This document shows positions 1,835-63,183 of a DNA stretch of 64,000 bases, piece by piece. The notes under the pieces are model-generated. The model saw nothing but the letters and a program-made list of their open reading frames with translations, searched no databases and had not been told where the DNA came from. Source of the stretch: Bidens hawaiensis (lineage: Eukaryota > Streptophyta > Magnoliopsida > Asterales > Asteraceae); NCBI GenBank assembly GCA_021521415.1, contig JAIQDT010009205.1:20511-84510 (forward strand). The letters run 5' to 3'. Positions within the stretch are counted from its first letter, which is position 1; each line of letters begins with the position of its first letter. The position numbers and the translations under genes were made by a program.

Positions 1835-2307
1835 TGTAGGTTCCTTGGACGGATCACACGAGATATCCCGATATACACAGGTGCGGAATCCCTGTGTAGA
1901 TCGTTACGGACGTAGAACACAAGCTCACAAACACACGAACACGATACGAACAAAACCACGTTATATTAATAACTCGAACCGTGATACTTACAGACTCTCG
2001 ACCTCACGTCACTTGACTCACTGAATTACACCTAAATTGAACTACTCGATCAACTAATCAACCTCTAAAACGATCAGCCGTACACTATATAAATACACGA
2101 CAACTTCGCCTCAGGCGAAGTTGTCCATAACTTCGCTCGTTCAGCAAGTTCGCCCAGGCGAACTTGTTAACAACTTCGCTTGGTTAACAAGTTCGCCTAA
2201 GCGAACTTGTCAACAACTTCGCTTCTAAACAAACAAATACATAAACAATATTACAGACTCGATTACAGACATTAGACATATGAACTACTGACATTTATGC
2301 ATCAACA
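1835..2307 (-). repeat. 3' LTR of Copia-2
   Basis: 473 bp, beginning TGTAGG and ending ATCAACA on the plus strand; the element reads on the minus strand. It contains a TATA-like stretch at about 2085-2095 and, upstream of it on the minus strand (2101-2225), a cluster of inverted GGCGAAGTT/AACTTCGCC and GGCGAACTT/AAGTTCGCC words. It is nearly identical to the LTR at 11825-12297. Confidence 0.95.
2101..2225 (-). promoter_or_regulatory. U3 word cluster with inverted repeats upstream of the LTR TATA box (3' LTR copy)
   Basis: At least ten 8-9 bp words of the types AACTTCGCC and AAGTTCGCC, in both orientations, fill this stretch. Three pairs form near-perfect palindromes with 2-3 nt loops: 10-bp arms in the first two pairs, slightly shorter in the third. 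On the transcribed strand they lie directly upstream of the TATA-like box at 2085-2095, where enhancer elements of an LTR promoter normally sit. Promoter function is inferred from position. Confidence 0.6.
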
Positions 2308-2371: not shown

Positions 2372-5203
2372 TCACGCGTGCACTCCTTCTCTAACACACA
2401 CCGTGACTACTCGCTGATATTTCCTTGCTTCATCCTTCCAAGCAAGAATATAGAATATCTTCTTTTCATTCAACACTAGCAGATCAGCTTTCGATAAGTT
2501 AACAAGATGCATCGGATCATACACCCTCAGCACTTCTTGTTCGTCTTCGTCTTCCATCACGGCTTCAGCAGTCTGGCAATCAACGTACGACCATTTTAGA
2601 TTCTTCAACACATCTTGAGGCATAGTCTTCATTGGAACCTCCTTGATGCATCGGATCGGTTTGTACTTCATCACCATCCATGGCTTGCCATCTGCTCTCA
2701 ATCCCCTTTCTGTATCCTCCACGAGCTTTCCCTTCTGTGGCTTTAATAATTCAAACTTCTTCTCTTTTACGCTTTCTTTCCACACGATCTTCCCAATCAC
2801 TCTTGCCATGTTGTCGTCACTTCTATTTATCAGGCCCAACCTGGCCAAATCCTTCACCTCACATTCCGGCAACGTATTGAGAGATCTCAACATTCTTTTG
2901 AAGTATTGAATACCATCATAACGTTTCACCACAAACAACTTTATCTGTTCATCATATATCCAACAGATAATTCCCTTCTTCGACTCGGCATAGCCTTTGA
3001 TGTTATAACTCTTCTTGAACATGGCTGGAACAGCAGGCTTCTTGGTCTTAATAAACCAATGAGCACAGCCTTCCTTCCACCTAGGCTGCTCCTCCCACTC
3101 AGTCTCATCCATCTCAGTACCCATGTCGGCTTTCTCAACATCAGGGATCTCGTGTTCGACGTCTTCTTCTACTATCTCCCCCTCTTCTATCCCATCTTCA
3201 ATCACAATCTGCTCACCGATCTTCTCAATCACATCACTCGGCAGCACATCTTCATCAAACAACACATCATCGCTGAACATATCATCGTCAAGTTCCTTCA
3301 ACGCATCAATCACGTCATCCTCCACCAACACCACATCATCACCAGAACCACCAGCCACGTCGGTAGACTCCCCCTCAGCTGTGGAAGTACCAAGAGCTTG
3401 AGAAGTTCTTGGCAGCTCACCACATGCATCTTTCGATGCATTGGGATCATCGTCTCGGTCATTTCTTCTTTTAGTCCTGAGCTCGTCGCCCTTACAGCTC
3501 ATCTCCCCCTGAGATGCCAAGAACTCCTTCAAGGCATCTATAACTTTCCCATGCTCAACCAGGAGGGATGCCTGTAGTTGATTTGCTTCCACTAGGCTTT
3601 GAATAGTCTTAGATTGCTCTGCCACGATCCGCTCTAGTGAAGCTATTCTCTCTGAGTCTGAAGTAGGCGTAGGCGAGACACCAGAAGCAGGCGTAACCGC
3701 AGGTGGTACCATACCTGATAACCCTGCAGTAGTGATGACCGTTGACTCTACAAATCGTGCAGCTACCACCGACTGAGTAAGCGTTGGAGGTGGTAGAGAC
3801 ACGATCTCCGGAGTCGACGTCTGGATAGCAGTGATGGATGGAGTGCCAGCAGATGATGTAGCCACCACGGGAACATCCGCAGCGCTTGTACTTGTAACCT
3901 GTACAGAAGAAGGAACGATAGACATACCAGACAGTGCGGACGGAGCGAAACGTACCGTCCTTGAAGTCTCTCCAGCTCCCATGCCAGCACCTGTCCTTTC
4001 CCGTCTTGATCTTCTTATCAGCTTATGTATATCTTCTTCCTCTTCTGACTCTTCATCATCCTCCGTTCTCTTTCTTTTCCCAAACGTTCTCTCTCGAGAC
4101 ACCATCAACCGTCTCCCCTCATCCATGATCTCATCCAAATCTGAGTCAGCTATCGAAGTTGCTGCTCTAGTAGCACTCACACCCGAACCTTGTGTAGCCG
4201 AGACCTGCACCTCTTCAACTTGATCCATATCAAAATAACCTTGACCTCCAAAGACAGCGTCAAGATCAATATCCTCTGCAGCCGACACAACAGGCACAGC
4301 AGGAGCAGGAACAGCTTGAGTTGCTCTTGCCTGTCGCGGTTGAGGATCTCTGAACTCGTCCCCACCAGCAGGAACATACTCTGGGTTAATTAAAAAACCA
4401 AACAGTGGAGTATGCCTGGGACGACGTTCAGGGTTGCTCCTCGCACTTGAAGTGCGGCATTGAGCAAAGATACGTTTGCTCACAGATTCCACGTATCTTA
4501 TCGGGCGTCTCTGAGGTAGATTCGGAGCCACATGGTTCAATATCATATGGATAAAACGTGGGTACATAATGAACCGCTCCCGAGACATCGCCCTTCTTTG
4601 CCTGTCAATCTCGTAAAAGACCATCTGACTGAAACTGAAGCGTTTATTGTAAGTCAGTGCAGTCATTGCAGACTGCATGGTCGCACCCATACCGTCAGTG
4701 CCCGCCTTCCTCCCAGACATGCAAACTATCATAACGTGCATGAGGAAGCGCCACTGATCTAGAAGGAAATCCTTCCTCCTCTGGGTATCACCTAATGGAC
4801 CAGAGTAGCCCATTCGGAGAAACGCTCCATCACGGAACGGAGCTACGAACTCAGTTGGGTTGTCCCTCGTCTCTTCTCCAAATCGTAATGCCACCCGAAT
4901 CTGTTCAGAATTGAACTGAACTTGTTGATTGTTCACAGTCGCTCTCATGACCGGGGGCTCAACACGACAGTCGTATTCGACCGTCTGCCAGAAGTCTTCG
5001 ATATTTGGTAGAGATATCGGCAGAGTGTTTGTGATGGCATGAAAAATCCTCGAGCGTAGGAGGAAAGTTATGATCTCGCGGTAATCGTCCACACCGCTCG
5101 TCTCCGGGTCAAAGGTGATGTACATATTGTGACCCGGGAAAAATTGACGTTGGTTATCACCATCGTCTCCTCCTGTACCTCCAGCACCCGCTACCGCAGC
5201 CAT
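2372..5203 (-). CDS. Third ORF (ORF3) of Copia-2, intact, 943 aa, function unknown
   Basis: A single open frame after pol and before the 3' LTR. Residues ~25-300 look globular and contain a recurring block (FWQTV, then DQWRFLMHVM, then FSFSQMVFYE, then FIMYPRFIHMIL) that I recall from plant retrotransposon proteins, especially Asteraceae. A low-complexity Ser/Thr/Pro/Ala stretch follows, with basic-acidic GKRKRTEDDEESEEEED near residue 372 (nuclear-signal-like). Next come a probable coiled coil (~514-564), an acidic stretch (~610-700), and a conserved basic C-terminal domain (~714-943) with WFIKTKKP, RYDGIQYF and DPMHLVNLS. No transmembrane segment or signal peptide is visible, so it does not look like an envelope protein. 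No catalytic motif is recognised. The ATG follows TTTGTTGCAG. Broken copies exist at 17631-20559, 22930-24390 and 57886-60867. Confidence 0.85.
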   Translation of the reverse strand: MAAVAGAGGTGGDDGDNQRQFFPGHNMYITFDPETSGVDDYREIITFLLRSRIFHAITNTLPISLPNIEDFWQTVEYDCRVEPPVMRATVNNQQVQFNSEQIRVALRFGEETRDNPTEFVAPFRDGAFLRMGYSGPLGDTQRRKDFLLDQWRFLMHVMIVCMSGRKAGTDGMGATMQSAMTALTYNKRFSFSQMVFYEIDRQRRAMSRERFIMYPRFIHMILNHVAPNLPQRRPIRYVESVSKRIFAQCRTSSARSNPERRPRHTPLFGFLINPEYVPAGGDEFRDPQPRQARATQAVPAPAVPVVSAAEDIDLDAVFGGQGYFDMDQVEEVQVSATQGSGVSATRAATSIADSDLDEIMDEGRRLMVSRERTFGKRKRTEDDEESEEEEDIHKLIRRSRRERTGAGMGAGETSRTVRFAPSALSGMSIVPSSVQVTSTSAADVPVVATSSAGTPSITAIQTSTPEIVSLPPPTLTQSVVAARFVESTVITTAGLSGMVPPAVTPASGVSPTPTSDSERIASLERIVAEQSKTIQSLVEANQLQASLLVEHGKVIDALKEFLASQGEMSCKGDELRTKRRNDRDDDPNASKDACGELPRTSQALGTSTAEGESTDVAGGSGDDVVLVEDDVIDALKELDDDMFSDDVLFDEDVLPSDVIEKIGEQIVIEDGIEEGEIVEEDVEHEIPDVEKADMGTEMDETEWEEQPRWKEGCAHWFIKTKKPAVPAMFKKSYNIKGYAESKKGIICWIYDEQIKLFVVKRYDGIQYFKRMLRSLNTLPECEVKDLARLGLINRSDDNMARVIGKIVWKESVKEKKFELLKPQKGKLVEDTERGLRADGKPWMVMKYKPIRCIKEVPMKTMPQDVLKNLKWSYVDCQTAEAVMEDEDEQEVLRVYDPMHLVNLSKADLLVLNEKKIFYILAWKDEARKYQRVVTVCVREGVHA

Positions 5204-5224
5204 ATCTGCAACAAACTAACCAAG

Positions 5225-5935
5225 TTAGATAAACGTTAATGAATAACACAAGTTCGCTGGTTACCATGAGCGAAGTTGTGATAAACTCTGTATAGGCGAA
5301 GTTAAAGTTGAGGCGAAGTTGGGAACAACTTCGCTTCAGCTTTAAGTTCGTCTAATTAATATTAAGTAAAAATGATCTTAGGCGAAGTTAATGTTAACTT
5401 CGCCTCATCACAACATCGCCTCAGGCGAATTTAAGTTTCAGGCGAAGTTACGGATAACTTCGCCTCAGGCGAACTTAAGCTTCGGGCGAAGTTACGGATA
5501 ACTTCGCCTCAGGCGAACTTAAGTTTCAGGTGAAGTTGCTGATAACTTCGCCTAAACCCTAACTTCGCCTGAATCTGAATCGGCGACAGTGAGGATTATG
5601 GAACAACGTGCAGTCGATGTTTTCGTGATTAAGGAATCCGGAAAACATGAATGAACATGAAATATATGATAATTCGACATCTCGAACCTTGAACTTAATG
5701 AAATCTGGGAAAAAATAACACGTAATCGGTTTAAATAACAAGTTCGCCGGAGAATAGGTAAGTTCGCCGGATAAGTTCGCTGGATATTTGAAAAGTGATG
5801 AACAGTTTACCTGTTGAACATCCTTATATAGGGTCTGGGTTATACAGGCGAAGTTACGGATAACTTCGCCTAGGCGAAGTTATTCACAACTTCGCCTGTT
5901 TAACAACATCGCCTATATTTACAAAATCAAACCTT
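5225..5935 (-). promoter_or_regulatory. Candidate internal promoter of ORF3 in Copia-2
   Basis: A dense array of GGCGAAGTT/AACTTCGCC words in both orientations surrounds a TATA box read on the minus strand as CCCTATATAAGG (5821-5833). Several words (5845-5930) lie just upstream of the TATA on that strand, and many more (5225-5575) lie between it and the ORF3 ATG at 5203. The same words sit upstream of the TATA in the LTR. I infer that ORF3 may have its own promoter; no transcript evidence is available. Confidence 0.5.
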
Positions 5936-6929: not shown

Positions 6930-7200
6930 TAATCGCCCCGACCAAAACAAAGTCTTCAGGTAAACGGCTATCCCGAAGATCCAATGGATCAGCTGGACCG
7001 ACCACATACTAGTATGTGTCCTTCTAACTAAGTATGATCCACTAATTTTAAGCGAAAGAAAGAAAAACTCATCATAAACCGCCCCGGTCACTATCAGTAA
7101 TCTGGTTAATGGCTATCCTCAAAATCTACAAGTAGAAAATGAGGACCAAAACATATCCGAAGACAAGTCCTTCAAACTGATGTAACCGACATATTTTTAA
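6930..7200 (-). ncRNA. Tandem hairpin module (two copies) in Copia-2 spacer
   Basis: On the minus strand, copy A has a hairpin at 7143-7170 (GGAC...GGTCC with a TTCG loop) and copy B one at 6995-7021 (ACATACTAGTATGT core, a perfect palindrome). Each is followed by a second small hairpin with a conserved ATAGCCRTTWA loop and then GGGGCG. They match modules in Copia-1 (15597-15866) and Copia-4 (55160-55435). Whether this acts as RNA structure is inferred from compensatory changes. Confidence 0.5.
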
Positions 7201-7252
7201 GCGATTAGTTAAGGTTTTTTTTTTTATTTTAAATACCACAAGAAAAGCATGG

Positions 7253-8622
7253 TTACTCGGGATTGATCATCCCATTCAGTTCAATAAGGTTTTGAAATCT
7301 GGATTTGTCAAACGCTTTAGTGTATAAATCAGCGAAATTATCAAGCATATCCACCTTTTCAAGCATTATCAGTTTCTTCTCAGCACAATCCCGTATGAAA
7401 TGATGACGTATGTCAATGTGTTTAGTTTTACTATATTTCACGGGATTGTTAGTTACTGAGATAGCAGCTGTGTTATCAATGCAAATAGGAGTAAGTAAGA
7501 AATTCAGACCATAGTCGCGCAACTGTTGTTGAATCCAAAGAACCTGAGAGCAGCAGTTGGATGCTGCCATGTATTCTGCCTCACAGGTTGAAATTGCGAC
7601 TGAAGTCTGCTTCTTGCATTGCCACGACACCAATCTGCCACCAAGAAACTGACATCCTCCAGTTGTTGACTTCCGACTCTGATTGTACCCTCCATAATCA
7701 GAATCTGTGTAAGCGACCAGCTCCAAGTCTCCTCCTCTCGGGTACCACAACCCCAGCTTCGGCTTGCCCTTGAGATACCGCAGTATCCTCTTTGCACCTT
7801 TCAAATGAGATTCTTTTGGATTTGCCTGAAAACGTGCACAAAGACAAACAGCAAACATTATATCAGGCCTAGATGCAGTTAAGTACATTAAATAACCTAT
7901 TATTGCCCGATATTGAGTTGGGTCCACATCTGCATCACCGTCTACTTCAGCACCCAATTTGTGATTGACGCAGATTGGAGTATCATATGGAGAACTGTCC
8001 TCCATCTTGAAGCGCTTGAGCACATCATGAACATACTTCGTCTGATGAATGAACATCCCGTCCTTCTTCTGATCAACCTGCAATCCTAGAAAGAAAGTTA
8101 GTTCACCCATAGCACTCATTTCAAACCTTTTCTTCATGACGGCTTCAAACTCCTGACACATGGAGACTTTTGACGCAGCAAATATAATGTCATCCACGTA
8201 GACTTGTACCAGCAGGAAGTCGCTTCCATCTCTTTTGAAGAACAACGTGCTATCAATTTTCCCTCTTTCAAAACCATTCTCGAGCAAGTAATCCGATAAC
8301 GTTGAATACCAGGCACGAGGTGCCTGATGTAATCCATACAACGCCTTGCTCAACCTGTACACGTGATCTGGAAAGTCTGGGTCAGGAAAACCCGGAGGTT
8401 GCTCAACATACACAACCTCATCAACTTTCCCATTGGACACCGTTCCTTTTCTAGTAATTCTTCCTCCACTTTCACCAGCAAAGCTAACTCTCGCTCCTTG
8501 AACAGGTTTTAAGTCGTGCTACAAGTATTTGTTACCCGTCATGTGCCGGGAACAGCCGCTATCTACAATCCAAAGACTGTGGGCAGCCCTGTTCAACTGT
8601 TCCTGCACAATAAAGCAAAGGA
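7253..8622 (-). pseudogene. pol: Deleted pol of Copia-2: protease start fused to RT C-half and RNase H
   Basis: Reading leftward from the gag stop, the frame gives the protease DSGCSRHMTGNK region, then [10 protein letters not shown], then jumps at about 8427-8434 from ...NGK (protease) to [10 protein letters not shown] (RT). The integrase and the RT N-terminal half, about 1.95 kb by comparison with Copia-1, are missing. Both ancestral sites contain AAYGG(K)AAA, so microhomology may have guided the deletion. What remains includes YVDD (RT active site), RNase H with AYTDSDYGG and STCEAEYMAA, and a normal end at 7253. A TAG in the protease part and a 1-nt shift after gag also block expression. 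The part from 8440 to 7253 is an uninterrupted 395-codon frame. Confidence 0.9.
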
Positions 8623-11262
8623 TTAGAATCTAGGGACCCAAGACCAATTGGTCTTGGATCTATACATCCCGTACTTCTGCTTTCCAAAGTTAGCATTTGG
8701 ATAATTCCTGTCAGTCCTATTAGGAAATCTCCTTGGAAATTGAGTGTGAGGCCTTCCAAACCTATGTGTATTGAAAGTATTATATCTAGTGGTTTGGTTA
8801 TTAGCATTGTTAAACTGAGGTTTGTTTCTGTGAAAACCTGAATTAGTTACATTTCGGAACTTTGAAGGGTTTTCATTTTTAACAGTATTAAAATTACCAT
8901 TAGGCTTATGCTCAGTTTTAATAGGCCTCACACCTCTGAATTTCGGCGTCAGAGGGCAATCTGCAACAAGATGTCCTAACTTATTACACCTAAAACAACA
9001 CCTATGTTCCATTTTCTTTTCAAATGTTGTTTTGGATGTCGAGGCTGTGTTACCGGCCGTTCGTCTCACATAAGGTGGGACGTACAGGTTGAGTGGAGTA
9101 CTCTTTTTAGAAGTTTTATCTTTTTCTCCACCAGTGGGTAACACTACCTTCTCTTTTGTCTTAACCGATTCGGACAACTTATCTGAATCTGATGAGATTG
9201 GACTCGTAACAGAAATTTTCACACTTGAAACAGGCGAACTCGTTTCGCAACTACTAACACTTGGTTCTTTACTCGTAACCTTGATTGGAACTGTCTGAGG
9301 AACTTCAAAATCAACAGATTTTTGAACACTAGGGTTAAAAGTGTAATTGTGGTTATATGGTGGTGGAACCTCGTGATAACCAATTCCTCCCCTCTTCGTA
9401 GAGGTACCTTGATCACTAACAAGGTGATCAAGAATAGCTGAGGAATTTCTGAACTGTTCAAGTTTTCGGTTCAGTTCCACCACTTTCACCTGGTGGTCAG
9501 CAATCTGCTTTTCTCGTTCAGCAATCAGTTTAGTCTTTTCTTCTAAAACCTCATAATTTAGATCAATTACTTCAATTTTTTCAGCAAGTTTTGTTTTTAA
9601 GCTTTTAACATCTTTTTCACACGCTTTTATTTTAACTTTGTAACTGTTTTCTCTTGCTTTCATAAAGTGATGATCTTCTTTAAGAGTTTTAAATTCAGCA
9701 TCTAAACGAACATACTGATCAGTTATGGTAGCAAGTTGCTCAGACAAATTCTCACATTTAGTACAATTAGATTTAGAACTTACCTTGGAGAGTTGATCAT
9801 TGTTATCTGCCATGAAAGCTTTTTCCTTACCAGTAGCTTTCTCTTCTCCGGTAATCTTCTCACATTCTTCATTCTCAACCTTAGCCATATTTGCCTGTTC
9901 ACTAGTTTCATTCGAATGCAGGTTCCAGTTGTATTCACCTGCTTCTCTGGACATCATGGCATTGACTTCTTTACTACTCCCAGTGTGCTGTGCAGACCGG
10001 CCCTGACCACGTTCAACTCGCTCGTTTCTGCACTCTTTGGCAAAGTGCCCGTTTGGTTGACAGTTATAGCACCTCACCTTAGACTTGTCGAACCCTGGCC
10101 TGCCACCAACAAACTTTCTCCCCGTCTTTCTCATAAACTTCTTCACTCTCCTCACTATCATGGCCATCTGCCATTGTAAATCCATTTCCTCCAGATCATC
10201 AGCATCGATCTGGTCATAGTCTTCATCTAGCATCGCTGGATCAACCACCTTTCCTTGAATATAGTTTTCATATGAAGCAATAAATGAAGCATAGAGGCCA
10301 AACTGCTCTTCAGCAGATTTGATGCTCATTGGCATCTTAGAGTAATTATTGCTTGAGGAACTTGAAGATCCACTAATCTTGCTTGCTGTCTGTTGAGTAC
10401 CACTTGATCCACCCGCAACAAAGCAAACATCCCCATTTGAGTTTACTGACACATGCCCTTCCTGTGAAGAATTGGCACCCGACTCACCCTTCGAGTAGTA
10501 GGCGGCAAAATCAGTCTTTGAACTTGTATTGGAGTTTACTTTAGCACCGTACATGCCTGGATCTTGAACCTGATCCATAGATGTTTCTTTCCTTACCATA
10601 TTAAGCTCAAAAGTTCTGAGCTTGTTGACAGTGGTTTCAAGATCATAAGTAGGGAAGTCCTTGTCTTCCCTCATCAGTACAGTATACATCTCCCATTTTG
10701 GTGGGAGAGCATCGAGAAGTTTTTCCACAATCTCTTCTTCTCGGTATGAAATGGAGTAGTTACTCAATTCAGTCATTAGATGATAATATCGAGTGATAAT
10801 GTCATCCAGAGATTCGTTCTTTAAGTACTTAAAGACTGAAAATTGAGTCTTGAGCAACTTTATCTTTGAAGCCCGAATACCTACATTCCCTTCAAATCTG
10901 CTCTCAAGAGCTTCCCAAAGCTCTCTAGCTGATGTATACTTTCTGAACGTATGGAGGATCTCCTGTGGAAGAGCCATTGTGATTGCAGCATGAGCCTTGC
11001 TCTCGGCTTCATACATCTTTTTCTCCTCCTCTTCCATTTTACTGTATTTCTTGATTTGGTCTCGACCCTCATACTCCATGATTGGTGGAATATATCCATC
11101 TTGGATGCATACCCACATCTTCGCATCCTGGTACTTAACGTATTGTATGAACCGATCCTTCCACGCGACAAAATCGGTTCCCTTCAGCAACCTTGGGGCC
11201 TTTGTAGCTGACCCCGCTTCAAATTCCATCTTTACAAGCTCCGAAATGTTGATCGACGACAT
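8623..11262 (-). CDS. gag: Gag polyprotein of Copia-2, intact, 879 aa
   Basis: Capsid/nucleocapsid precursor. It starts MSSINISELVKMEFE. An N-terminal UBN2-type capsid domain (residues ~20-240) shows LLKGTDFVAWKDRF and ELWEALESRFEG. Zinc knuckle 1, CYNCQPNGHFAKEC, lies at about 397-410; a long charged coiled coil at about 500-620; zinc knuckle 2, CFRCNKLGHLVADC, at about 754-768; then a basic Asn/Arg/Phe-rich tail ending WSWVPRF. It aligns along its whole shared length with the partial Gag at 1-1755. It is open despite the loss of pol in this element, so the particle protein may have been made, or needed, until recently. The stop is TAA. Confidence 0.93.
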   Translation of the reverse strand: MSSINISELVKMEFEAGSATKAPRLLKGTDFVAWKDRFIQYVKYQDAKMWVCIQDGYIPPIMEYEGRDQIKKYSKMEEEEKKMYEAESKAHAAITMALPQEILHTFRKYTSARELWEALESRFEGNVGIRASKIKLLKTQFSVFKYLKNESLDDIITRYYHLMTELSNYSISYREEEIVEKLLDALPPKWEMYTVLMREDKDFPTYDLETTVNKLRTFELNMVRKETSMDQVQDPGMYGAKVNSNTSSKTDFAAYYSKGESGANSSQEGHVSVNSNGDVCFVAGGSSGTQQTASKISGSSSSSSNNYSKMPMSIKSAEEQFGLYASFIASYENYIQGKVVDPAMLDEDYDQIDADDLEEMDLQWQMAMIVRRVKKFMRKTGRKFVGGRPGFDKSKVRCYNCQPNGHFAKECRNERVERGQGRSAQHTGSSKEVNAMMSREAGEYNWNLHSNETSEQANMAKVENEECEKITGEEKATGKEKAFMADNNDQLSKVSSKSNCTKCENLSEQLATITDQYVRLDAEFKTLKEDHHFMKARENSYKVKIKACEKDVKSLKTKLAEKIEVIDLNYEVLEEKTKLIAEREKQIADHQVKVVELNRKLEQFRNSSAILDHLVSDQGTSTKRGGIGYHEVPPPYNHNYTFNPSVQKSVDFEVPQTVPIKVTSKEPSVSSCETSSPVSSVKISVTSPISSDSDKLSESVKTKEKVVLPTGGEKDKTSKKSTPLNLYVPPYVRRTAGNTASTSKTTFEKKMEHRCCFRCNKLGHLVADCPLTPKFRGVRPIKTEHKPNGNFNTVKNENPSKFRNVTNSGFHRNKPQFNNANNQTTRYNTFNTHRFGRPHTQFPRRFPNRTDRNYPNANFGKQKYGMYRSKTNWSWVPRF

Positions 11263-11810
11263 TCTTCTTGAAGACTAAGAAACCCGAAAAATTCTGAAAA
11301 GGCGAAGTTAAGAAATTTCCTCTGAACAGTACTGTAGGCGAAGTTAAGGATAACTTCGCTTAAGTAATAACTTCGATGGATCTTTCTTAAATTCGCGTGA
11401 CTGGGCGAACTTGAGAATAACTTCGCTTAGGGTAAGCGAACTTAGAAAGTAGGCGAACTTGAAGAAAACTTCGCTGAGCTAGGCGAACTTGAGGAGAACT
11501 TCGCTGAGTTAGGCGAAGTTGAGGAGGTAGGCGAAGTTGTAAATAACTTCGCTTCTCCTTATATCTTCGCTGAAACCCTACGTATCCTGACGGCAACTTC
11601 GCCTGATGAACAGCAACTTCGCCTGACGAACTTAAACTTTCTGCAGATCTGAAAAACGGATTTTAATGACGTTTCCGACGGTTTAAAGGCTTAAACACAC
11701 TGGTAGGAGGCTAGAATGAGCAAAAACACCACAAACTCGTCCCGTGAATACCCGAAATGGGACGTATTCTACACCCGCGTGAATATCCCGAACCACACAA
11801 TCGAGCAAAA
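11263..11810 (-). other. Leader of Copia-2 between PBS and gag
   Basis: About 550 nt of untranslated leader. It holds at least a dozen AACTTCGCC/GGCGAACTT words in both orientations (11300-11635), often 20-40 nt apart, then a word-free stretch next to the primer site. No ORF of substance runs on the element strand. Retroelement leaders usually carry packaging and dimerisation signals; these words could fold into stem-loops. Confidence 0.7.
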
Positions 11811-11822
11811 GCTCTGATACCA
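11811..11822 (-). other. Primer-binding site of Copia-2 (tRNA-iMet type)
   Basis: TGGTATCAGAGC on the minus strand, two bases inside the 5' LTR. This 12-mer is complementary to the 3' end of plant initiator tRNA-Met and is the usual minus-strand DNA primer site of plant Copia elements. Confidence 0.95.
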
Positions 11823-11824: not shown

Positions 11825-12297
11825 TGTAGGTTCCTTGGACGGATCACACGAGATATCCCGATATACACAGGTGCGGAATCCCTGTGTAGATCGTTACCGA
11901 CGTAGAACACAAGCTCACAAACACACGAACACGATAATAACAAAACCACGTTATATTAATAACTCGAACCGTGATACTTACAGACTCTCGACCTCACGTC
12001 ACTTGACTCACTGAATTACACGTAAATTGAACTACTCGATCAACTAATCAACCTCTAAAACGATCAGCCGTACACTATATAAATACACGACAACTTCGCC
12101 TCAGGCGAAGTTGTCCATAACTTCGCTTGTTCAGCAAGTTCGCCCAGGCGAACTTGTTAACAACTTCGCTTGGTTAACAAGTTCGCCTAAGCGAACTTGT
12201 CAACAACTTCGCTTCTAAACAAACAAATACATAAACAATATTACAGACTCGATTACAGACATTAGACATATGAACTACTGACATTTATGCATCAACA
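11825..12297 (-). repeat. 5' LTR of Copia-2
   Basis: 473 bp, TG...CA, matching the left LTR except for about five substitutions (four sites, one of them two adjacent bases). U3 words lie at 12091-12212 and the TATA-like box at 12075-12085 (minus strand). This is the copy that would drive transcription of the element. Confidence 0.95.
12091..12212 (-). promoter_or_regulatory. U3 word cluster and TATA of the active-side LTR of Copia-2
   Basis: Alternating AACTTCGCC and AAGTTCGCC words form three hairpin-like inverted repeats. On the minus strand they end about 6 bases before TATTTATATAG (12085-12075). The arrangement is the same as in the Copia-1, Copia-3 and Copia-4 LTRs. Promoter role is inferred. 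Confidence 0.6.
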
Positions 12298-15596: not shown

Positions 15597-15866
15597 ATCG
15601 CTTAGAATTATGTCGGTTGCTTCAGTTTGAAGGACATATCTTCGGATATGTTTGGTCCTCAATTCTACCTGTAGAGTATGAGGATAGCCGTTAACCAGAT
15701 GACTGAAAGTGACAGGGGCGGTTTATGATGTGTTTTTATTCTTTCGCTGAAAATTAGTCGTTCATACTTAGTTAGAAGGACACATACTCGTATGTGGTCG
15801 GTCCAGCTGATCCATTGGATCTTCAGGATAGCCGTTTACCTGAAGACTTTGACTTGATCGGGGCGA
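15597..15866 (+). ncRNA. Tandem hairpin module (two ~146-nt copies) in Copia-1 spacer
   Basis: Copy A: CGCTTAGAATTATGTCGG, hairpin 1 at 15632-15658 (outer stem GGAC/GTCC, inner ATATC-TTCG-GATAT), hairpin 2 at 15682-15696 (GG-ATAGCCGTTAA-CC), GGGGCGG at 15715-15721. Copy B: TCGCTGAAAATTAG, hairpin 1 at 15778-15804 (CACATAC/GTATGTG), hairpin 2 at 15821-15845 (CTTCAGG/CCTGAAG closing the same ATAGCCGTTTA loop), CGGGGCG at 15859-15865. Copies keep the pairing but change the paired bases. This is not a family I recognise. Confidence 0.55.
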
Positions 15867-16879
15867 TAGAAGTTAAATTTTTTTAATTGGGAGATGAAAT
15901 AATTTTTCAAGTCTACTACTTCGTAAGAAGTGAATATACAATGTTTAAAAGAAAATTGATCCAACCTTGGAAAGTGATGGACAAACTGATTCTGTGTGCT
16001 TAACTAGTGAAGTTATTAGGCCTAAAAGACTTTAGAACAGTCATTGTATGTCAAGGTAGCTTTTTATGGTGCGTAAAAGTAAAAGTGATACTAACTAAAT
16101 CTCCTCGATCTTACGTGGAAACTCCTTAAGAGTTGTGCATGTCTCCATATATATCTTTCCGAATGATAGGCAGCAAAACGATTACCCAGTCATACACGAG
16201 CCCGTGAGTGTTCTGATTCCCGAGAAGATGGTGTGTCAAGAAACTGCAGTGATCCAGATCCGGGACTTGCAGTAGTTTACTTGAAGCTGTGTAAATCTTA
16301 TTATTTAAAAAAAAAAAAATTATTTAAGCCTTCTAAAGCTTATAATGTAATACTTATCAATCATGAGGCAAGAAAGAGAACGGGAAGAAGAGTCTAAAGA
16401 TCGAAGAGTACTTACTATTTAATCAGACACTACGGGTCGAGGTCAACTCGGGGTGACTTGGGGAAAGCCAAATACGCTTTGAGAATAGATAGGAGACATC
16501 ATAATCTCTGAGGTGTTGCCCATTTAAGTTTTGAGCTTAATTGAACCTAACCCGTATCACAGAAGCGATGAAAACCATAATAAGTTATTTACCTGCTTAC
16601 AACCTATTTCTTTATGTCATAATACAGCTGAACATGGATCTGTGTGACAGTCACTTAATTAGTATGATTCCTGTTCGGATCTTTTCTAAAACGTGGTAGT
16701 CCCTGTCGAGACTGAAATTTGATCCCGTGTACTTTATTTCTAAATTTTATTCTACTTATGTCGTTTTACGAGTTTATACCTGGTTACTTGGTCTATGATC
16801 GTATCATTTAACTTTTTAAAGGAAGTTTCAAAAGTTGATTGCAAAATGTTCAAATTAAAAGGGTTTGTTTTGTAAAGTT

Positions 16880-17570
16880 TAATATAGGCGAAGTTGCTTA
16901 AACAGGCGAAGTTATGGGATAGGCGAAGTTAACCCTAACTTCGCCTGTATAACTTTGACCCTATATAAAGAAATTTTTGGTCAAACTCATTATTATTTTT
17001 TAAACCCAGCGAACTTGTCATCCATTAACCTCGGCGAAGTTATATCTCGAATCACATCTTGTTGTTTTTCTCAGTTTCTAATCCGATTTAAAGGTGTGTA
17101 GTGTCATCATATCGCATAATCTATGACAATGATGTTAATCAAGGTTGTTTCGACCCGATTTGTGACCCCGTTCAATCAAACCCTCAACACCCGCTTTTCA
17201 AACTTATTTTTACGTGGTCGTAATCATATTGATCGTCTAGATCTCCATAAAATCATGTGTTTATGAGTCCACAATCATCAAATTATCCAATTTCACCTCG
17301 TTTGGCCGGCTATACTGTTGCCGCTTCAGATTCAGGCGAAGTTACAGTTTAGGCGAAGTTAACCTTAACTTCGCCTAAGGGTTAACTTCGCCTGATATTT
17401 AATTGTTTAACAGTATATGAGGCGAAGTTGTGGTTAGGCGAAGTTATCATTAACTTCGCCTGGCCCTTTTAACTTATTTTTAATTTACATTTATCAGGCG
17501 AAGTTATTACCAACTTCGCCCCACCCTTAACTTCGCCTATACAGAATAAATCATAACTTCGCTCATGGTT
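16880..17570 (+). promoter_or_regulatory. Candidate internal promoter of ORF3 in Copia-1
   Basis: GGCGAAGTT words cluster at 16885-16945, followed by a TATA box CTATATAAAG (16961-16970) about 660 nt before the ORF3 ATG. More words fill 17025-17575. The word set equals that of the element's own LTR (20725-20810). A pyrimidine-rich TTTTTGTTGCAG ends two bases before the ATG and looks like a 3' splice site, so either an intron in the 5' UTR or splicing from the LTR transcript is possible. Confidence 0.5.
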
Positions 17571-17630
17571 ACAGGCGAACTTGTGATTTGACTTGACGAT
17601 TCTCTAACTTAGACTGTTTTTGTTGCAGAA

Positions 17631-20559
17631 ATGGCAGCTGTAGCTGGAGCCGGTGGTGCAGGTGGTGATGAAGGTGGAGACAACAACCGACAGTTTTTCC
17701 CGGGGCATAATACGTACATTACTCTGGACCCGGATGCGAGCGGTGTTGATGATTTCCGCTAGATCATCACGTTTCTTATCCGCTCGCGTATCTTCCACGC
17801 TATTACTACAACACTGCCTATCTCTTTGCCAAACATAAAAGATTTCTGGCAGACAGTGGAATATGATTGTCGAGTCGAGCCCCCGGTTATGCGTGCAACG
17901 GTTAACAATCAGGTAGTGCAGTTCTCGTCTGAGCAGATCAGGGTGGCCTTGCAATTTGGAGATGAAACGAGAGACGATCCTACAGACTTTGTGGCTCCAT
18001 TCAGAGATGGTGCTTTTCTAAGAATGGGCTATTCTGGTCCATTGGGGGATACTCAAAGACGAAAGGGGTTCTTGTTAGATCAATAGCGCTTTCTCATGCA
18101 CGTGATGATCGTGTGCATGTCGGGTAGAAAGGCCGGTACAGATGGAATGGGTGCAACGATGCAGTCAGCGATGACAGCACTGACTTACAATAAGCGTTAT
18201 AGCTTTAGTCATATGGTGTTCTACGAGATAGACCGTCAAAGACGAGCGGTGGCGCGTGAGAGGTTCTTGATGTATCCAAGATTCCTTCAAATGATCTTGA
18301 ATCACGTTGCTCCCACGTTACCTCAGCGCCCCCCCGATTAGATATGTGGAGAGTGTAGGTAAGAGAATCTTCGCTCAGTGTAGATCCTCAAGTGCAAGAA
18401 GTAAGCCTGAGCTCCGTCCTCGACATACTCCATTGTTTGGGTACTTGATCAATCCCGCGTATGTTGCAGCTCGTGGGGACGAGTTTCGGGATCCGGCACC
18501 ACAACAGGCTGGAGCACCTCAACCACCACCTGAGGTACAACAAACTTTACCTGCTGCTCCTGTTGTGTTACCGGAGGAAAATGTAGACCTTGAAGCTGCA
18601 TTTGGCGGTCAAGGATTTTTTGATATGGAGCGTGTTGATCCTGAGGAAGATGTACAAGTCTCGGTTGCACGGGTTACTAGTGTGGATGTGGCTATGGCAG
18701 CTACGACGGAGGCTGATTCTGATTCTTCGAATGATGATGTGGCTGAGGCTAGACAGATTTTGATCTCTTAAGAAAGAATTCATGGGAAGAGAAAGACAGA
18801 CACCGATGACAGTGATTCGGATTTTGAAGAAGATTTACATCGGTTGGTTCGAAGATCGAGAAGGGAAAGGGCAGGTGCAGGTTCGGGAGCTGGTGAGAGC
18901 TCAAGGGTGGTTCGTTTTACTCCACCCGCACTGTCTGGTATGACTATGGTCCCTTCATCACTGCCAGTTACAGGGTTAAGCGCTGCGGATGTTCCCGTGG
19001 TGACTACCTCATCTTCCTTCGGCATCCCACCCACTACATTCCAGCTCTCGGCTCCGGAGATTGTGTCCTTGCCACCTCCATCTCTTACTCCATCGGAGGT
19101 CGTAGCAAGGTTTGTTGATTCGACAGTTGTTGCCACTGCAGGGTTGTCGGTTACGATACCACCTGCGGTTACGTTTCCACCTGTTTCTTTGGTGCCGGTT
19201 ACATTGGGAATCTCTCCTCCGTACACTCAAGACATATCACCTATGAGGTTTGATTTCGATGCAACCTTATCCGACTCGGAAAGAATAGCAGCGCTTGAAC
19301 GGGTCGTGGCCGAACAATCAGAAGTAAATCTTATCCAGACTCATGGTATTCAGCGCCTCGTTGCGGAGAATCAAATTCAGTCATCCCTCCTGATCGAGCA
19401 TGGTAAAATATTTGATGCCTTGAAACAGTTCTTGGCATCTCAGGGGGAGACGAGCTGTAAGGGTGACGAGCTGAGGACAAAAAAGAGCAACGATCGAGAC
19501 GATGATCCCAATGCATCGAAAGGTACAGGTGGTGAGTTGCCAAGAACTGAACAAGCTCTTGGGACTTCCACATCTCAGGGGGAGTCAACGAGTGCAGCTG
19601 GCGGTTCAGGGGGTGATGATGTGGTGGTTGTGGATGCTGAGGAGGTGTTAGATGATGACGTTATGTGTGATGAGGATGTGTTACCATTGGAAGAGATCGA
19701 GAAGATAGGAGCTGAGATCGTGATTGACAATGAAGTTGAAGAAGGAGAGATTGTGGAGGAGAACATTGAGCATGAAATTCCGGCAGTTGAAAAGTCAGAT
19801 CTGGGTCAAAATACGGAATGTGATGAGACTGAATGGGAAGAGCAGCCAAGATGGAAAGAAGGCTACGCTCAGTGGTTCGTAAAGACTAAGAAACTGGCGG
19901 TCCCTACTATGTTCAAAAAAAGTTACAACATCAAGGGTTATGCTGAATCGAAAAAGGGGATTATTTGCTGGTTATATGATGGGCAGTTGAGGCTCTTTGT
20001 GATTAAACGGTATGATGGGGTTCAGTATTTCAAGAGATTGTTGAGGTCGTTGAATACGTTGCCTGAGTGTGAAGTGAAGGACTTAGCCAGGTTGGGATTG
20101 ATAAACAGGAGTGATGATAACATGGCTAGGATCATTGGAAAGATTATTTGGAAAGAAAGCATAAAAGAGAAAAAGTTCGAGTTATTAAAGCTGCAGAAGG
20201 GAAAGCTAGTTGAAGATAAAGACAGAGGTATGAGAGCTGATGGCAAGCCTTGGATGATAATGAAGTATAAGCCGATCCGGTGTCTAAAAGAAGTGCCGAT
20301 GAAACAAATGCCCAAGGATGTGCTCAAAGATCTGAAATGGTGGTACGTTGATAGTGAAACAGCTGAAGCAGTGATGGAGGATGAAGATGAACAAGAGCTG
20401 ATGAGAGTGTATGATCCAATGCACTTAGTGAATTTGTCTCAAGCTGATCTGCAGGTGCTGAACGAGAAAAAGATATTTTACATTCCTGCTTGGAAAAAAG
20501 AAGCAAAGAAATATCAAAGAGTAGTTTCAGTTTGTGTACGAGAAGGCGTTCATGCTTGA
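17631..20559 (+). pseudogene. Third ORF (ORF3) of Copia-1, broken
   Basis: Same protein as the intact 943-aa ORF3 at 2372-5203, starting MAAVAGAGGAGGDEG. Breaks: TAG at 17760-17762 (Glu in the intact copy), TAG at 18084-18086 (Trp in DQWRFL), a one-base insertion in a C-run near 18329, and TAA at about 18769-18771. From 18772 to the stop at 20559 the frame is open, covering the basic RRSRRERAG segment, the coiled coil with SDSERIAALERVVAEQS, the acidic stretch and the conserved C-terminal domain (WFVKTKKL, DPMHLVNLSQ). More decay than in pol suggests this ORF was under weaker constraint in this copy, or chance. Function unknown. Confidence 0.88.
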
Positions 20560-20639: not shown

Positions 20640-21039
20640 TGTTGGTACATGATGTCAGTAGTTCAGTATCTAGTGTCTGTAATTGTGTTAGTTGGATTTG
20701 TATTAATGTTTTGTTAACTTGTTTCACAAGTTCGCCTCTTATAAGCGAACTTGTGGAACAGGCGAAGTTATCAACAACTTCGCCTAACATGTTAGGCGAA
20801 GTTGTCTATAACCATAAAAGCTTAGCTGCGGTTGTTTTGTAATTAACGATTCAGTACGTGTAATCGGTGATTGAGATATCACGTGTTATTAGTTGCAATA
20901 CAACGTTTTCTTTGTTTATTGTAACATGTGTTTGCTTGTGTTTAACGTATATCGATTCTACGCTCGTATCATCTTACGTAGGGATTCCGCACCTACATAG
21001 AACGAGATATTTCCGCGTAGATCTGGCTGGGAACCTACA
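20640..21039 (+). repeat. 3' LTR of Copia-1
   Basis: 400 bp, TGTTGGTAC...GGAACCTACA. It aligns at both ends with the reverse complement of the Copia-2 LTR but is shorter and clearly diverged, so it is a related subfamily. U3 words (AAGTTCGCC, GCGAACTTG, GGCGAAGTT) lie at 20725-20810 and precede a weak TATA-like TCTATAACCATAAAA (20805-20819). The 5' LTR is outside the window. Confidence 0.88.
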
Positions 21040-36714: not shown

Positions 36715-36905
36715 TATGAGTTCGTTTTCATATAAGTTCACTGGATAATAAGTTCGTTTCTATTAATTTCGCCACTTTCAAGTTCGCCTACTGATATGTT
36801 CGCCGGACATTAAGTTCGTCGGATGCTAAGTTGGCTTGTATATAATTGTTCAGGTGTACATAAGTTCTCTTACAGCAAGTTCGTTTGATGTAAGTTCGCT
36901 TACAT
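36715..36905 (+). repeat. AAGTTCG word cluster in the Chromo-C LTR
   Basis: About ten AAGTTCGYY words in one orientation, 10-25 bp apart (AAGTTCGTTT, AAGTTCGCC, ATGTTCGCCGG, AAGTTCGCTT). It lies about 600 bp downstream of the TATA box, unlike the Copia clusters, which lie upstream. Confidence 0.7.
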
Positions 36906-53039: not shown

Positions 53040-53198
53040 CCTCACAGATATTATAAGGGTCTGGTCCCTAACATCACAGATATTATTAGGGTCTGGTTCC
53101 TAACATCACAGATATTATTAGGGTCTGGTCTCTACCATCATAGATATTATTAGGGTCTGGTCCCTACCATCACAGATATTATTAGGGTTTGGTCCCTT
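53040..53198 (-). repeat. ~32-bp tandem array in S3
   Basis: About five units containing CACAGATATTATTAGGG and TCTGGTCCCTA, homologous to the three units in the Chromo-C LTR. Confidence 0.88.
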
Positions 53199-53747: not shown

Positions 53748-53884
53748 GCTGTCTTAACACATTTTCCATTAGCATTTTGAATCGTTGAATAATATGCTAC
53801 TTAAAAGTTCAAGGGCTTATTTGTAATTAAATCATTCTTTTCTAAGTCCAGGGACCATTCTGTCATTAAATTAAACTTCTAATT

Positions 53885-56799: not shown

Positions 56800-57720
56800 A
56801 TTCGTTAAATTTAACGAATTAAGGCCATTTATAACGAATTGAGCTCCAATTCGTTACTTTTTAATTCGCTTCCGCCACTCTATAACAAATGGCTTCTAAT
56901 TCGTTAAGATTTTAACGAATTACTTGTAATTCGTTATGCCAAGTGTTAACTTAAGATAACGAATCACCTGATTCGTTATTTCAAAATTCAAACGAATCAG
57001 ATGATTCGTTTCACTAAAAAATGTGCCGTGTCAGACTATATAGGGAGTCGTGAAGGCGTTTCGTTTCACTATTTACTTTCTTCTCCCCTATTCCTACTTT
57101 TCCTCTAGAAAAATATTTCAAAATCTTTGATCATCGTTATATCATGTTTTGATTATATATTCTTACTCACAGGGTTAACACGATCATAACGAGATGATTT
57201 TCGTTACATTTGAAAACTGTTTGATGGTTAATTGTTTGATTTTGTTATCGGGTTTTTGAGTGTTCGATAAACCTTAATTTAATCAACTTTTTACCATGTT
57301 TTGGGACAACAAGTCAATACCATTATAATCGCAATATGATTCCGAGATCCTTGAGATCATTGATTTTGTCTTATGTTATTGATTGTGGGTGTATTGATTT
57401 CAGATTGCAATTTTGACTTTTCATGTTCTTGGTAATTTTGACCTTAACCAGTTTAGTCAAACATTAAGCTTAATTGGCCATTCGTTATTGTTTAACGAAT
57501 TGGAACTCATTCGTGTCCAATTTGTTATACAAATCACACGAATCAGGATAACGAATCCTTATAACGAATCAGATTTTCATTTGTTATTTATAACGAATTA
57601 TACTATACTTCGTTAACTTTAATTAGTGATTCGTTAAACCTAATTTGTTAATTATTTACTTGATAGAGAAGCAGTAATTCGTCATAACGAATCACCAATT
57701 CGTTATAACGAATTAAAATT
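56800..57720 (+). promoter_or_regulatory. Candidate internal promoter of ORF3 in Copia-4
   Basis: Words TAACGAATTA, AATTCGTTA, AACGAATCAG and ATTCGTTT cluster at 56800-57020, followed by a TATA box CTATATAG (57036-57043). A second cluster lies at 57480-57720, before the ORF3 ATG at 57886. Layout equals that of the Copia-1 and Copia-2 internal regions, but with the word type of the Copia-4 LTR. A pyrimidine stretch GGGTTTTTTAATATAG ends just before the ATG. Confidence 0.5.
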
Positions 57721-57885: not shown

Positions 57886-60867
57886 ATGGCTGATAACATG
57901 GATCAAGATCCTCCCGTTGATGCACCTTAACAACAACAACAAGCACAAGATATTCCCTTACTACCGTATGACAAAAGACACAACGTTTGTGCCTTCGTTG
58001 GTACAAAATTTTCTGACGAGAACATTTTTGGTGGGATGTTGGAGTTCTTACGTCGCTCGCGTATTCATTATTCTATCACTGCTAATCCCGACGTCCGATT
58101 CAGCATTGTTTGTCAAATTTGGAATACGGCGAGATATGTGGAGACTGAGAACCACATTATAGCTAAAGTGCATGCCCGACCAGTTGTGATATCAACTGAG
58201 ACCGTTCGCCGGGTGCTAAGGTTTGATGACACCATTGATGACCCGAGTGAGTACCACAAAGACTTTATTAAAGGGTTATTTGGTCGTTTGTTTTATTCTG
58301 GTGATCTGGATGAGTCCATCTATAACAAGGCATAATGTGTGTCCTACTTACAAATATTTACTACACGTTCTTATCCACTGTCTTAGTGGACGGAATGGAG
58401 GGTTTGACGAATGTCGTATCATGCTTCAATCGGCGTTCGTTGCTTTAGTGTTGAATAAGCCTTTCAATTTCTCTGAGATGATCTTCGATAATCTCAAAGA
58501 GAATTGTCTTACTGTGAAACGACGCATAAATTTCTTGATGTATCCTCGCTTCATCCAATTGTTCGTTCAAGATGCTATACATAATCTGGTGATTGATCCA
58601 ACTCAAGTTGAGGATAAATTTACGTTGGATCACATGAAAGCGGATACTATGAGGAGGATGAAGCAGTACCGTCAAGATACTCCTCCAAGATTCAAAAGAT
58701 TGACTGGTCATCTGGTGAATCCAGATTATGTATGTCCTCCCGATGATCGCTGGATCCACGATGACTCAGATTCTGAGCGTGAGGAAGGAGTAGGTGGGAA
58801 CGAGGGTGATGATAATGATGATGGTGGTGGTAATGGTGGTGATGGTGACGCTCAAGCTCAACAACAAGCTGCGGTTGAGGCTGCTTTAGCTGCTACTATA
58901 GCTGCTCAACGAAAAAAGGAAAGGGAAAGAGTTGGTTGGTGAAGGGTCTTCTAAGCGACGTGTGTCGGCTGGTGCTGGCATCTCATTTGGAGTTCAACCT
59001 CCAAGGTCGTCCATTCCTCAAAGACCGGCGGTGCCGCTTACTACTAGCACCTCGGAACTTACTCTAATGACTACGCTCACATCTGATCCGAGGCTTGGTA
59101 TGATTCCTCAAACTATTCTATCTACTTTACCAAGACCTACGACTGCAACTTCGGTGGTTTCTCCTACACCGATGATGATGCCTCCACCACCGATAGATGT
59201 TTCATTTCTGAGGCTTAACCGACCTCAAGGTCCAGTTTAACCAATCCCTTCTTCGTTTCTTGCAATGTCTCATGATCAACAAATGAACATGGTCTTGAGT
59301 TTACTCCATTTGTATGAAAATCAAATTTCTGCGGACCGAATGACTCAAGAACGTATGTTGGAGAACCAAAAGAAGTTGGTGAGTTATGTATCCTTCTGCC
59401 AAAAAGAGTCAAAAGCCCTCTGTGAGATTGTTGAGTCTTAGGGGGTGAAAATAAAAGAACAAGAGGATCTTATCTTGTAGCTAACTTGCAAGACCATGAA
59501 GATCCAGATGCTTCAGGTACTGGAGGAAGTGAGCCTAAACAAACTCACGGCTCGTCTTCTGGTGCGGGTACAAGTGCAGTTGGTGATTCGGGAAAGAAGA
59601 TAATTGTTCATCATGATTATACAGCTGCTACACCCATTGAGATGATCAAGACTAACATCGTTATCTTTGTTGATGACAAGGGGGTGGTTAGAAGTATTGT
59701 TAATGCAGATGAGATTGAGGTTGGGCAATTTGTTGAGAAATCCCTAACACGAGAGCAGATTTCTATTCTGCTTGGTTTGAATGATGATGAGTTAACCGTG
59801 TTAGAGGGTGAAGACGATGTGAAGGTCGAGAACGATGAAGAGATCTTAAATGATCCAACTATTTAGATGAATACTGAGTTTATTTATGAGGATGAGGAGG
59901 TGGAGATTGAGGATCTTACGGCAGAGGAATACCCTGACATGTTTCAACGAACCAATGTTGATCAGGGTGCTCCTATATATACAGAAGAAAACGTTAAAGC
60001 AGCCGAAGACCATCTGGATAAAGTATCAAAGGCCAAGAATGTTGTTGATACAAGATTTGATTCAAAGCCCGATCCGTCTGTTGCTGACATTCATAGATGG
60101 TTGGCTTATCGGGACAAGAAAGTTCGTAAGATTATTGATGCATTCCGATATGTGGATCAAGAGCAAAAGTTGAAGCTGTCGCTCGTGCTCAAGCTAATCA
60201 GATGACATCCTTTAAGGCCGTATCTAAAGTGCGACGTGACATTATTTCATGGCATTATGATTCCAATTTAAATGTTTGTATTGTTAAATGGGAAAATTGC
60301 ATTCAGTACTATGAAAAGATTAATGGCGTTCTCTGATTACCGCGTTGGGACGTTCGGACCCTCGCATGTCGACCGTTTATTAACCGTGGCGGGAATCAAC
60401 AAGCAATTTGGTTTCACCAACATTTTCTATTTGAGGTGAACCACGGGTTCAAATTTTTTAAACCTCAGATTCCAACCCGTAAGCGTATCGATGAGATTGA
60501 TCCAAGGACAGGTTGGAGGAAGCTGGTACTTAAGGTAAAGCCGCCAAGAACTATGAAGCGTGTACCGGTGAAGACGTTGAACCAACATATGTATTTATCT
60601 TTCAACCGCTGGTATTACAACAACCGAACTGGTGAGGCCGTTATTGTGTTGGGTAAAGGCTTAAAAACCGAGCTGATAAAGATCATTGATCCGATGTGGC
60701 TCGTGAATTTGACCGAGACCGACAATGACGTGCTATTCAAGAATAAGATATTAATTGAGCTTCGTGAAGACTATGACCGAGCAATGTAGTTTAAACGTGT
60801 TGTTCATGTGTGTCATGAACATGGTATTCACAGTTGCAGAGATTGGCAGACAAGACGCTTCAAGTAA
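57886..60867 (+). pseudogene. ORF3 of Copia-4, broken
   Basis: Starts MADNMDQDPPVDAP, then a TAA in place of a Gln codon (57928-57930). Homologous to ORF3 of Copia-2: LEFLRRSRIHYSIT, YKYLLHVLIHCLSGRNGG, NKPFNFSEMIFDNL, FLMYPRFIQLFVQ, acidic and Gln/Ala-rich middle, then a C-terminal domain with PPRTMKRVPVKTLNQH, WYYNNRTGEAVIV, IDPMWLVNLTETD and, after a TAG at 60787-60789, FKRVVHVCHEHGIHS to a TAA at 60865-60867. Several frameshifts (near 58333, 58930, 59240, 59460, 59866, 60200). The protein diverged strongly while keeping the same landmarks, evidence of an old conserved gene in this lineage. Confidence 0.82.

Positions 60868-63143: not shown

Positions 63144-63144
<1 letters not shown>

Positions 63145-63180: not shown

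Positions 63181-63183
<3 letters not shown>

Follow-up and report, generated by a model that had tools for sequence, protein, structure and literature searches.

The third gene (ORF3) of two related Copia retrotransposons is probably driven by the DNA directly before it, acting as an internal promoter for RNA polymerase II and including a leader intron, a reading to which we give a probability of roughly 70%. In the window, which denotes the whole stretch of 64,000 nt analysed here, each of these elements carries before ORF3 a dense set of short words that also occur in its LTRs, a TATA box at a near-constant distance from the last upstream word, and splice-like signals between TATA and start codon. 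The layout of words and TATA is real and conserved among genomic copies of both families, and it probably represents an internal promoter. An earlier sequence-only reading of this DNA had proposed an internal promoter sharing its control words with the LTR; it stands as the best reading and its layout as conserved, whereas the activity itself is proposed from sequence.

Elements, words and TATA boxes

Copia-2 lies on the minus strand, inserted inside the plus-strand Copia-1, and both follow the order gag, pol, long spacer, third ORF and 3′ LTR; Copia-4, a distant relative of the two, occupies the plus strand from ~50 kb. Among the 120 best hits listed, relatives of the window's pol genes are nearly all from Asteraceae (Mikania, Smallanthus, Helianthus, Tanacetum, Centaurea, Arctium and Tagetes), with one filed under E. 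coli. The source assembly comprises 3.47 Gb. The LTR pair of Copia-2 is identical at 461 of 468 aligned columns, and an Rfam scan of the window gave no match at gathering threshold. The features to which the text refers are as follows.

1835..2307, minus strand: Copia-2 3′ LTR, words as in the 5′ LTR
2372..5203, minus strand: Copia-2 ORF3, open, 943 aa
5823..5831, minus strand: Copia-2 internal TATA CTATATAAG; TATATAAG in 30 of 30 copies
5847..5896, minus strand: four Copia-2 words, arranged as two facing pairs ahead of the internal TATA
11263..11640, minus strand: Copia-2 leader from primer site to gag, with a word cluster (15 words in 11263-11812, 0.11 expected)
11825..12297, minus strand: Copia-2 5′ LTR, nine words, the last one 9 nt before the TATA site
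16887..16945, plus strand: four Copia-1 words immediately preceding the internal TATA; the two nearest to it form the facing pair GCGAAGTT-N6-AACTTCGC
16961..16969, plus strand: Copia-1 internal TATA CTATATAAAG
17335..17582, plus strand: second Copia-1 word cluster, downstream of TATA and upstream of ORF3
17631..20559, plus strand: Copia-1 ORF3, interrupted by stop codons in frame and by a change of frame
20640..21000, plus strand: Copia-1 3′ LTR (part), five words directly upstream of the TATA-like CTATAACC
57036..57043, plus strand: Copia-4 internal TATA CTATATAGGG, flanked by AACGAAYY words, 11 before it and 8 after it
57886..60834, plus strand: Copia-4 ORF3, degraded

The elements may be called Sirevirus-like, a class assigned from short motifs rather than from an RT tree, and one that the junction and PPT fit while the dinucleotide and box core do not. 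Specifically, the junction of LTR and primer site in Copia-2, ...CCTACA-ATTGG-TATCAGAGC, fits the Sirevirus rule CA-ATTGG-TATCAGAGC, and the PPT AGGGGGAG starts 10 nt before the 3′ LTR, as that class has it, in Copia-1 (20630; LTR at 20640) and Copia-2 (2317; LTR at 2307). Each of these two elements has four copies of the PPT motif, the upstream ones inside pol or ORF3; in Copia-4 the motif was not found. The PPT–LTR dinucleotide is TC in Copia-1 and Copia-2 instead of the Sirevirus AT, and the paired word GCGAAGTT-N6-AACTTCGC differs from the CGG-CCG core of Sirevirus boxes, a core with one exception, Tnd-1, according to the accessible text of the source (PMC2829016). Gag (879 aa) has a zf-CCHC at 397-412 and downstream of it only a sub-cutoff Sec10_N hit at 564-621.

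Counted as GCGAAGTT or GCGAACTT on both strands, words number 84 in the whole window, where 2.6 ± 1.6 are expected and no more than 8 occurred in any of 200 shuffles, and chance is thereby rejected as their origin. They are located in the LTRs, the Copia-2 gag leader and the pre-ORF3 regions, with two more at 36.8-36.9 kb; the stretches of gag, pol, ORF3 and conserved spacer that were counted in Copia-1 and Copia-2 contain none. Before ORF3 there are 18 in Copia-1 (16871-17631) and 22 in Copia-2 (5204-5960, minus), for which 500 local dinucleotide shuffles averaged 0.04 and 0.09 words and never exceeded 1 and 2, respectively, in keeping with what the sequence-only reading had said of both regions. 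That the words are promoter-only elements was considered and rejected, given the filled gag leader of Copia-2. Viral contigs contained no match to the word pair.

The same reading had placed internal TATA boxes at 16961, at 5831-5823 (minus) and at 57036, and ORF3 start codons at 17631, 5203 and 57886; all six positions are correct, the start codons as read from the sequence. Its description of words directly upstream of the LTR TATA also holds: in the four LTRs measured, every word precedes the TATA-like site, at a distance of 2-12 nt with the motifs used, and the Copia-4 LTR has its own word. Similarity between LTR and internal region is, as it had supposed, confined to short word-bearing stretches. 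The same layout had been claimed for Copia-4, where the order of words, TATA and ORF3 is indeed present but the word is a different one, AACGAATT/AACGAATC/AACGAACT and not GGCGAAGTT, found 19 times before ORF3 and 7 times in the LTR. Many pre-ORF3 words are downstream of TATA (14 of 18 in Copia-1, 18 of 22 in Copia-2 and 8 of 19 in Copia-4).

Words of these types also occur elsewhere in the window. Two solo LTRs of another family sit inside Copia-4 (52567-54832 and 61131-63404), each showing a 5-bp target duplication on visual inspection, and have AACGAAYY clusters of their own, a Copia-4-like word, with 13 and 12 words. An RCGAACT word cluster occupies 36719-36900, outside the regions assigned to Copia elements, and related RCGAANY words are found near 36.7-36.9 kb.

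Conservation across copies and signals before ORF3

For the Copia-1 region the analysis covered all 40 genomic copies that had been scored (5,829 candidates at first look), and for the Copia-2 region 30 of the 40 scored copies (3,527 candidates), the window element being included in each set; the copies share ancestry, and counts such as 39/40 and 30/30 are therefore not independent trials. The sequence-only reading had suggested comparing family copies, and the comparison came out in its favour: TATATAA is intact in 39/40 and 30/30 copies, and word sites are the least variable of the region. The one Copia-1 copy without TATA (L029) has a deletion there. The last word precedes TATA by 17 nt in 38/40 Copia-1 copies (one has 31 nt) and in 30/30 Copia-2 copies, and the base preceding the Copia-1 TATATAA varies among C, G and A. 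In the Copia-1 region TATATAA is among only 10 fully invariant word-free 7-mers of 500 sliding windows; for Copia-2 the equivalent test has low power, as 84 of 406 such windows are invariant. The pattern YTATAWAD matches the Copia-2 sense strand (10,467 nt) only at the two LTR copies and the internal site, and the examined part of Copia-1 (8,710 nt) only at the internal site, the LTR site CTATAACC being outside the pattern. There are 10 matches in Copia-4, some in the inserted solo LTRs, and 2-8 in each of six further 9.9-kb loci, three of which have CTATAAAT some 490 nt beyond their primer site.

Variation per site is 0.0097 in words versus 0.088 outside them in the 40 Copia-1 copies, and 0.0045 versus 0.0238 in the 30 Copia-2 copies, making word sites 5-9 times less variable than the remaining sites of the region. 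Shifted word masks never performed as well (0/757 for the first 28 copies of the Copia-1 set, 0/714 for the Copia-2 set). Methylated CpG normally decays fastest; at CpG sites of the Copia-1 region, variation in the first 28 copies is 0.018 inside words versus 0.085 outside. Of the four Copia-1 words upstream of TATA, the outermost is kept in 12/28 copies and the others, in order, in 26/28, 25/28 and 28/28.

Spacing within pairs is similarly constrained. Among window pairs within 30 nt, 23 of 24 facing words have a gap of 6 nt, filled by 18 different inner 6-mers, and close facing pairs (gap up to 14) in genomic copies have a gap of 6 in 137/137 and 200/200 cases (337 in total), again with variable inner 6-mers. 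Fixed spacing combined with free inner sequence suggests a two-part (paired) protein site. LTR pairs are less uniform: across the five long loci that were examined, some facing words are 5 or 7 nt apart, so that the 6-nt rule applies strictly ahead of ORF3 and more loosely within LTRs. Copia-4 has variable gaps.

Through words and TATA, the distance between Copia-1 and Copia-2 is 0.21-0.23, compared with Ks of 0.66 in pol and 1.4 in ORF3; downstream of TATA it rises to 0.40 and then 0.89 (17022-17330), and is 0.26 near the acceptor. Synonymous divergence between the two elements (46-20559 and 2372-11262) is uneven, with 0.66 in pol, 1.13 in gag and 1.42 in ORF3, the higher values being near saturation, and could reflect past recombination between families. 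Their non-coding pol–ORF3 spacer (15625-16277, 16387-16742) differs by 0.12-0.13, below the 0.66 at pol synonymous sites. In Copia-1 this spacer contains one further feature:

15597..15875, plus strand: two tandem, repeated, hairpin-bearing units of ~134 nt

Tandem units of this kind also lie between pol and the internal promoter in Copia-2 (7205-6924, minus) and Copia-4 (55161-55440, plus), and exactly two were found in 12 of the 14 loci searched (the window copy L001 included), with none in L008 and L044. They have a conserved outer stem and a hairpin, with two-sided changes in 4 of 16 pairs; single-sequence folds outperform shuffles by only a modest margin (z -0.3 to -2.8), and Rfam gave no match for the units.

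Between TATA and ORF3, Copia-1 and Copia-2 have conserved splice-like signals, which were absent from the sequence-only reading, as were the gag-leader words and the different Copia-4 word.

16992..17093, plus strand: putative Copia-1 leader exon, start taken as TATA + ~30; AUG-free in 39 of 40 copies
17094..17628, plus strand: putative Copia-1 leader intron, AAG/GTGTG to TTGCAG/; contains 12 of the 18 words
17604-17608, plus strand: Copia-1 branch-like CTAAC
5688..5801, minus strand: putative Copia-2 leader exon; AUG-free in 30 of 30 copies
5206..5687, minus strand: putative Copia-2 leader intron, AAG/GTTCG to TTGCAG/

Copies of the Copia-1 region keep a donor-like AAGGTG (39/40), TTGCAG (40/40) and a branch-like TCTAACT (39/40), and those of the Copia-2 region keep the donor AAGGTTCG (AAG/GTTCG) and TTGCAG (both 30/30). 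TTGCAG ends 2 nt before the ORF3 start, and the start codon is itself kept in 40/40 and 29/30 copies. Every copy has ATGs between donor and ORF3 (3-7 per Copia-1 copy, 4-9 per Copia-2 copy); given an AUG-free leader and an ATG-rich intron, unspliced internal RNA would be expected to translate ORF3 poorly and spliced RNA to translate it well. Splice donors were scored against a donor consensus of 9 positions, which the Copia-1 donor matches at 8 and the Copia-2 donor at 6, the latter a weak fit, no better than the best LTR-leader sites. Consensus scoring gave no convincing donor in the pre-ORF3 region of Copia-4.

A separate pair of splice-like sites is found in gag and pol. The gag donor (A/G)AG/GTAAGT, in phase 0 in both window copies, faces the acceptor TGCAG/GAACAG, at which pol (..WIVDSG) opens exactly, in a frame different from that of gag (Copia-2, 9783 to 8602, minus; Copia-1, 580 to 1777, plus). 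Joining the two in Copia-2 would fuse gag to pol in frame, making the sites a candidate for a spliced Gag-Pol message. Both sites are present in both window copies and in 4 of 6 long loci (L041, L042, L043 and L045), and neither was matched in the other two.

Expression of ORF3 and the protein that may bind the words

In the internal-promoter reading, a protein, probably a dimer, would bind GCGAA(G/C)TT-N6-AA(G/C)TTCGC in the LTR and internal promoter alike, and would activate or de-repress both together. Transcription would begin ~30 nt after the internal TATA, and the short AUG-free leader would be spliced to TTGCAG, two nt before the ORF3 AUG, with removal of an intron carrying several AUGs and many words. 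This would yield a distinct mRNA for ORF3, with its end in the 3′ LTR. Copia-4 counts in favour, insofar as it keeps the order of words, TATA, words and ORF3 despite a different word and an ORF3 with only 31-33% amino-acid identity to that of Copia-2 in matching pieces. Counting against are the words crowding the gag leader, for which the reading assumes no promoter, together with the TATA loss in L029, the single 31-nt spacing, the 5- or 7-nt gaps of some LTR pairs, the outermost word kept in 12/28 copies, the weak Copia-2 donor and the lack of a good one in Copia-4.

Comparison of Copia-1 with Copia-2 shows ORF3 to be under strong purifying selection (Ka 0.144, Ks 1.42, near saturation, over 564 codons; for pol, Ka 0.049 and Ks 0.66 over 245 codons). 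The Copia-2 protein has no transmembrane stretch (highest 19-residue hydropathy 1.12), and a membrane Env-like protein is rejected on that ground; it does contain runs of basic residues (KRKR, RRSRR) as well as an acidic tract, with 37 D/E in residues 601-700. Two AlphaFold2 models are poor (mean pLDDT 42 and 35), albeit with a fairly confident helix at ~516-565 of Copia-2 ORF3. A search with the ORF3 N-terminus found 10 relatives at E <= 0.001 among 623 candidates, all from Smallanthus sonchifolius, and a full-length protein search found nothing among 7,994 scored candidates. The locus tags of two Smallanthus relatives adjoin those of pol proteins (L1987_06821/06822 and 58100/58101), which is the same gene order. 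PF20167 (putative plant transposon protein; Pfam cutoff 45) gave no hit in Copia-2 ORF3, 15.9 bits in a Copia-4 ORF3 piece, and 23-28 bits in three of four scanned Smallanthus relatives, the fourth having no hit; the protein database assigns it to 4 of the 10. A partial match to this family also occurs in an extra ORF of sunflower Athila, as far as the accessible text goes (PMC11728184). Viral contigs contained no relatives of ORF3 or pol, and prokaryote genome contigs none of ORF3.

As to the binding protein, we put at a little under even odds the possibility that the internal promoter is real and its binder a host transcription factor, ORF3 not being its regulator; this is compatible with the internal-promoter reading, and the two probabilities overlap. 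Two solo LTRs from a different family bear clusters of Copia-4-type words, and RCGAANY words occur near 36.7-36.9 kb; similar words in unrelated LTRs of the window point to a host factor as readily as the differing words of related families make ORF3 attractive as the binder. Against a host factor, words differ between families with related ORF3 proteins, as if each ORF3 tracked its own word, which is only suggestive. A more tentative possibility, which we consider less likely than not, is that ORF3 is a family-specific nuclear DNA-binding regulator of the 22-bp paired word in LTR, gag leader and its own promoter, that is, a feedback switch activating or un-silencing its own family, with related elements having changed word and ORF3 together.

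A different route to ORF3 would be that of retroviral env, the LTR transcript being spliced from a leader or gag donor to the ORF3 acceptor, with the TATA incidental or a relic. The TTGCAG kept directly before ORF3 in 70/70 copies accords with such splicing, and the accessible part of one source reports env-like messages made by splicing in the plant element Bagy2 (PMC7264820). Copia-2 gag also offers a perfect donor, AAG/GTAAGT, although one that would leave ORF3 out of the gag frame. Two of the three donors ranking next in gag (8/9; 10487 and 9938) would join gag to ORF3 in frame, but neither is kept in Copia-1 relatives (no GT in 3/3 and 5/5 aligned sequences), whereas the wrong-phase donor is kept in 5/5; as donors for a gag–ORF3 fusion they are rejected. 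No Copia-2 leader donor scores above 6/9, although one of them could still be used, and a route that needs no TATA leaves a conserved one at a fixed distance from the words unexplained; we regard env-like splicing as unlikely. Least probable is that the words have no direct promoter role and are palindromic repeats maintained or multiplied on other grounds (small-RNA hotspots, hairpins or satellite-like growth), for although the gag leader is also word-filled and maize Sirevirus LTR palindromes are described as fast-evolving small-RNA hotspots in the accessible text of PMC5311732, the rigid spacing around a variable inner 6 nt, the low variability of word sites and the fixed TATA distance all speak against it, and hairpin loops need no exact length.

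Relation to known systems

For the question of how plant Copia elements express their third genes, the conserved TATA, the fixed word–TATA distance, the rigid paired site and the leader-intron signals provide exact positions at which the internal-promoter reading can be tested. As far as its accessible text goes, Bousios et al. 2010 describe 13 Sireviruses in which palindromic boxes precede a conserved TATA of the LTR; nine of the 13 have ENV, with extra linker boxes of which 77 of 79 are upstream of ENV, and six further ENV-bearing Sireviruses have no boxes (PMC2829016). An internal promoter was proposed for Sireviruses in that paper, not conclusively identified, and is among the expression mechanisms listed in a 2012 database paper, of which part was accessible (PMC3414828). 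The claim of the sequence-only reading that internal promoters are unusual in plant Copia elements has to be corrected, since pre-ENV boxes and the internal-promoter hypothesis are in print (PMC2829016), and a maize Grande accessory gene has its own promoter (PMC7264820). A literature search mostly outside subscription journals, in sources partly accessible, found no Copia internal promoter shown together with its TATA. The layout itself, with boxes before the LTR TATA and before the third gene, is already known; the additions here are an identified conserved TATA, fixed spacing, a paired word with a different core, gag-leader words and intron signals.

Compared with the Sireviruses as described in the accessible text of PMC2829016, the elements here share palindromic repeats upstream of the LTR TATA and third gene, the junction CA/ATTGG/TATCAGAGC and the terminal PPT AGGGGGAG, and differ in having no CGG-CCG core, in their gag-leader words, in a conserved TATA with leader-intron signals, and in an ORF3 without a membrane segment. 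Gene23 of maize Grande is likewise an accessory gene between pol and the 3′ LTR with its own promoter; Grande, however, is a Gypsy element whose gene is antisense to gag-pol, and the accessible portion of the source makes no mention of shared LTR words (PMC7264820). If true, the ORF3-regulator reading would provide a plant Copia counterpart of both the foamy-virus Tas/internal-promoter switch and VANC, and a self-encoded regulator would explain why each family keeps its own word. Foamy viruses, in the partial sources available, similarly have a promoter inside the element and one factor, Tas, controlling LTR and internal promoter, but are animal retroviruses, whereas the shared factor here is proposed from sequence. 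VANDAL/VANC anti-silencing, according to the accessible text of PMC5735166, also combines short family-specific non-coding motifs with the element's own accessory protein, the motif differing between related families; VANDAL, in contrast, is a DNA transposon with demonstrated motif binding, while the motif described here is known from its sequence.
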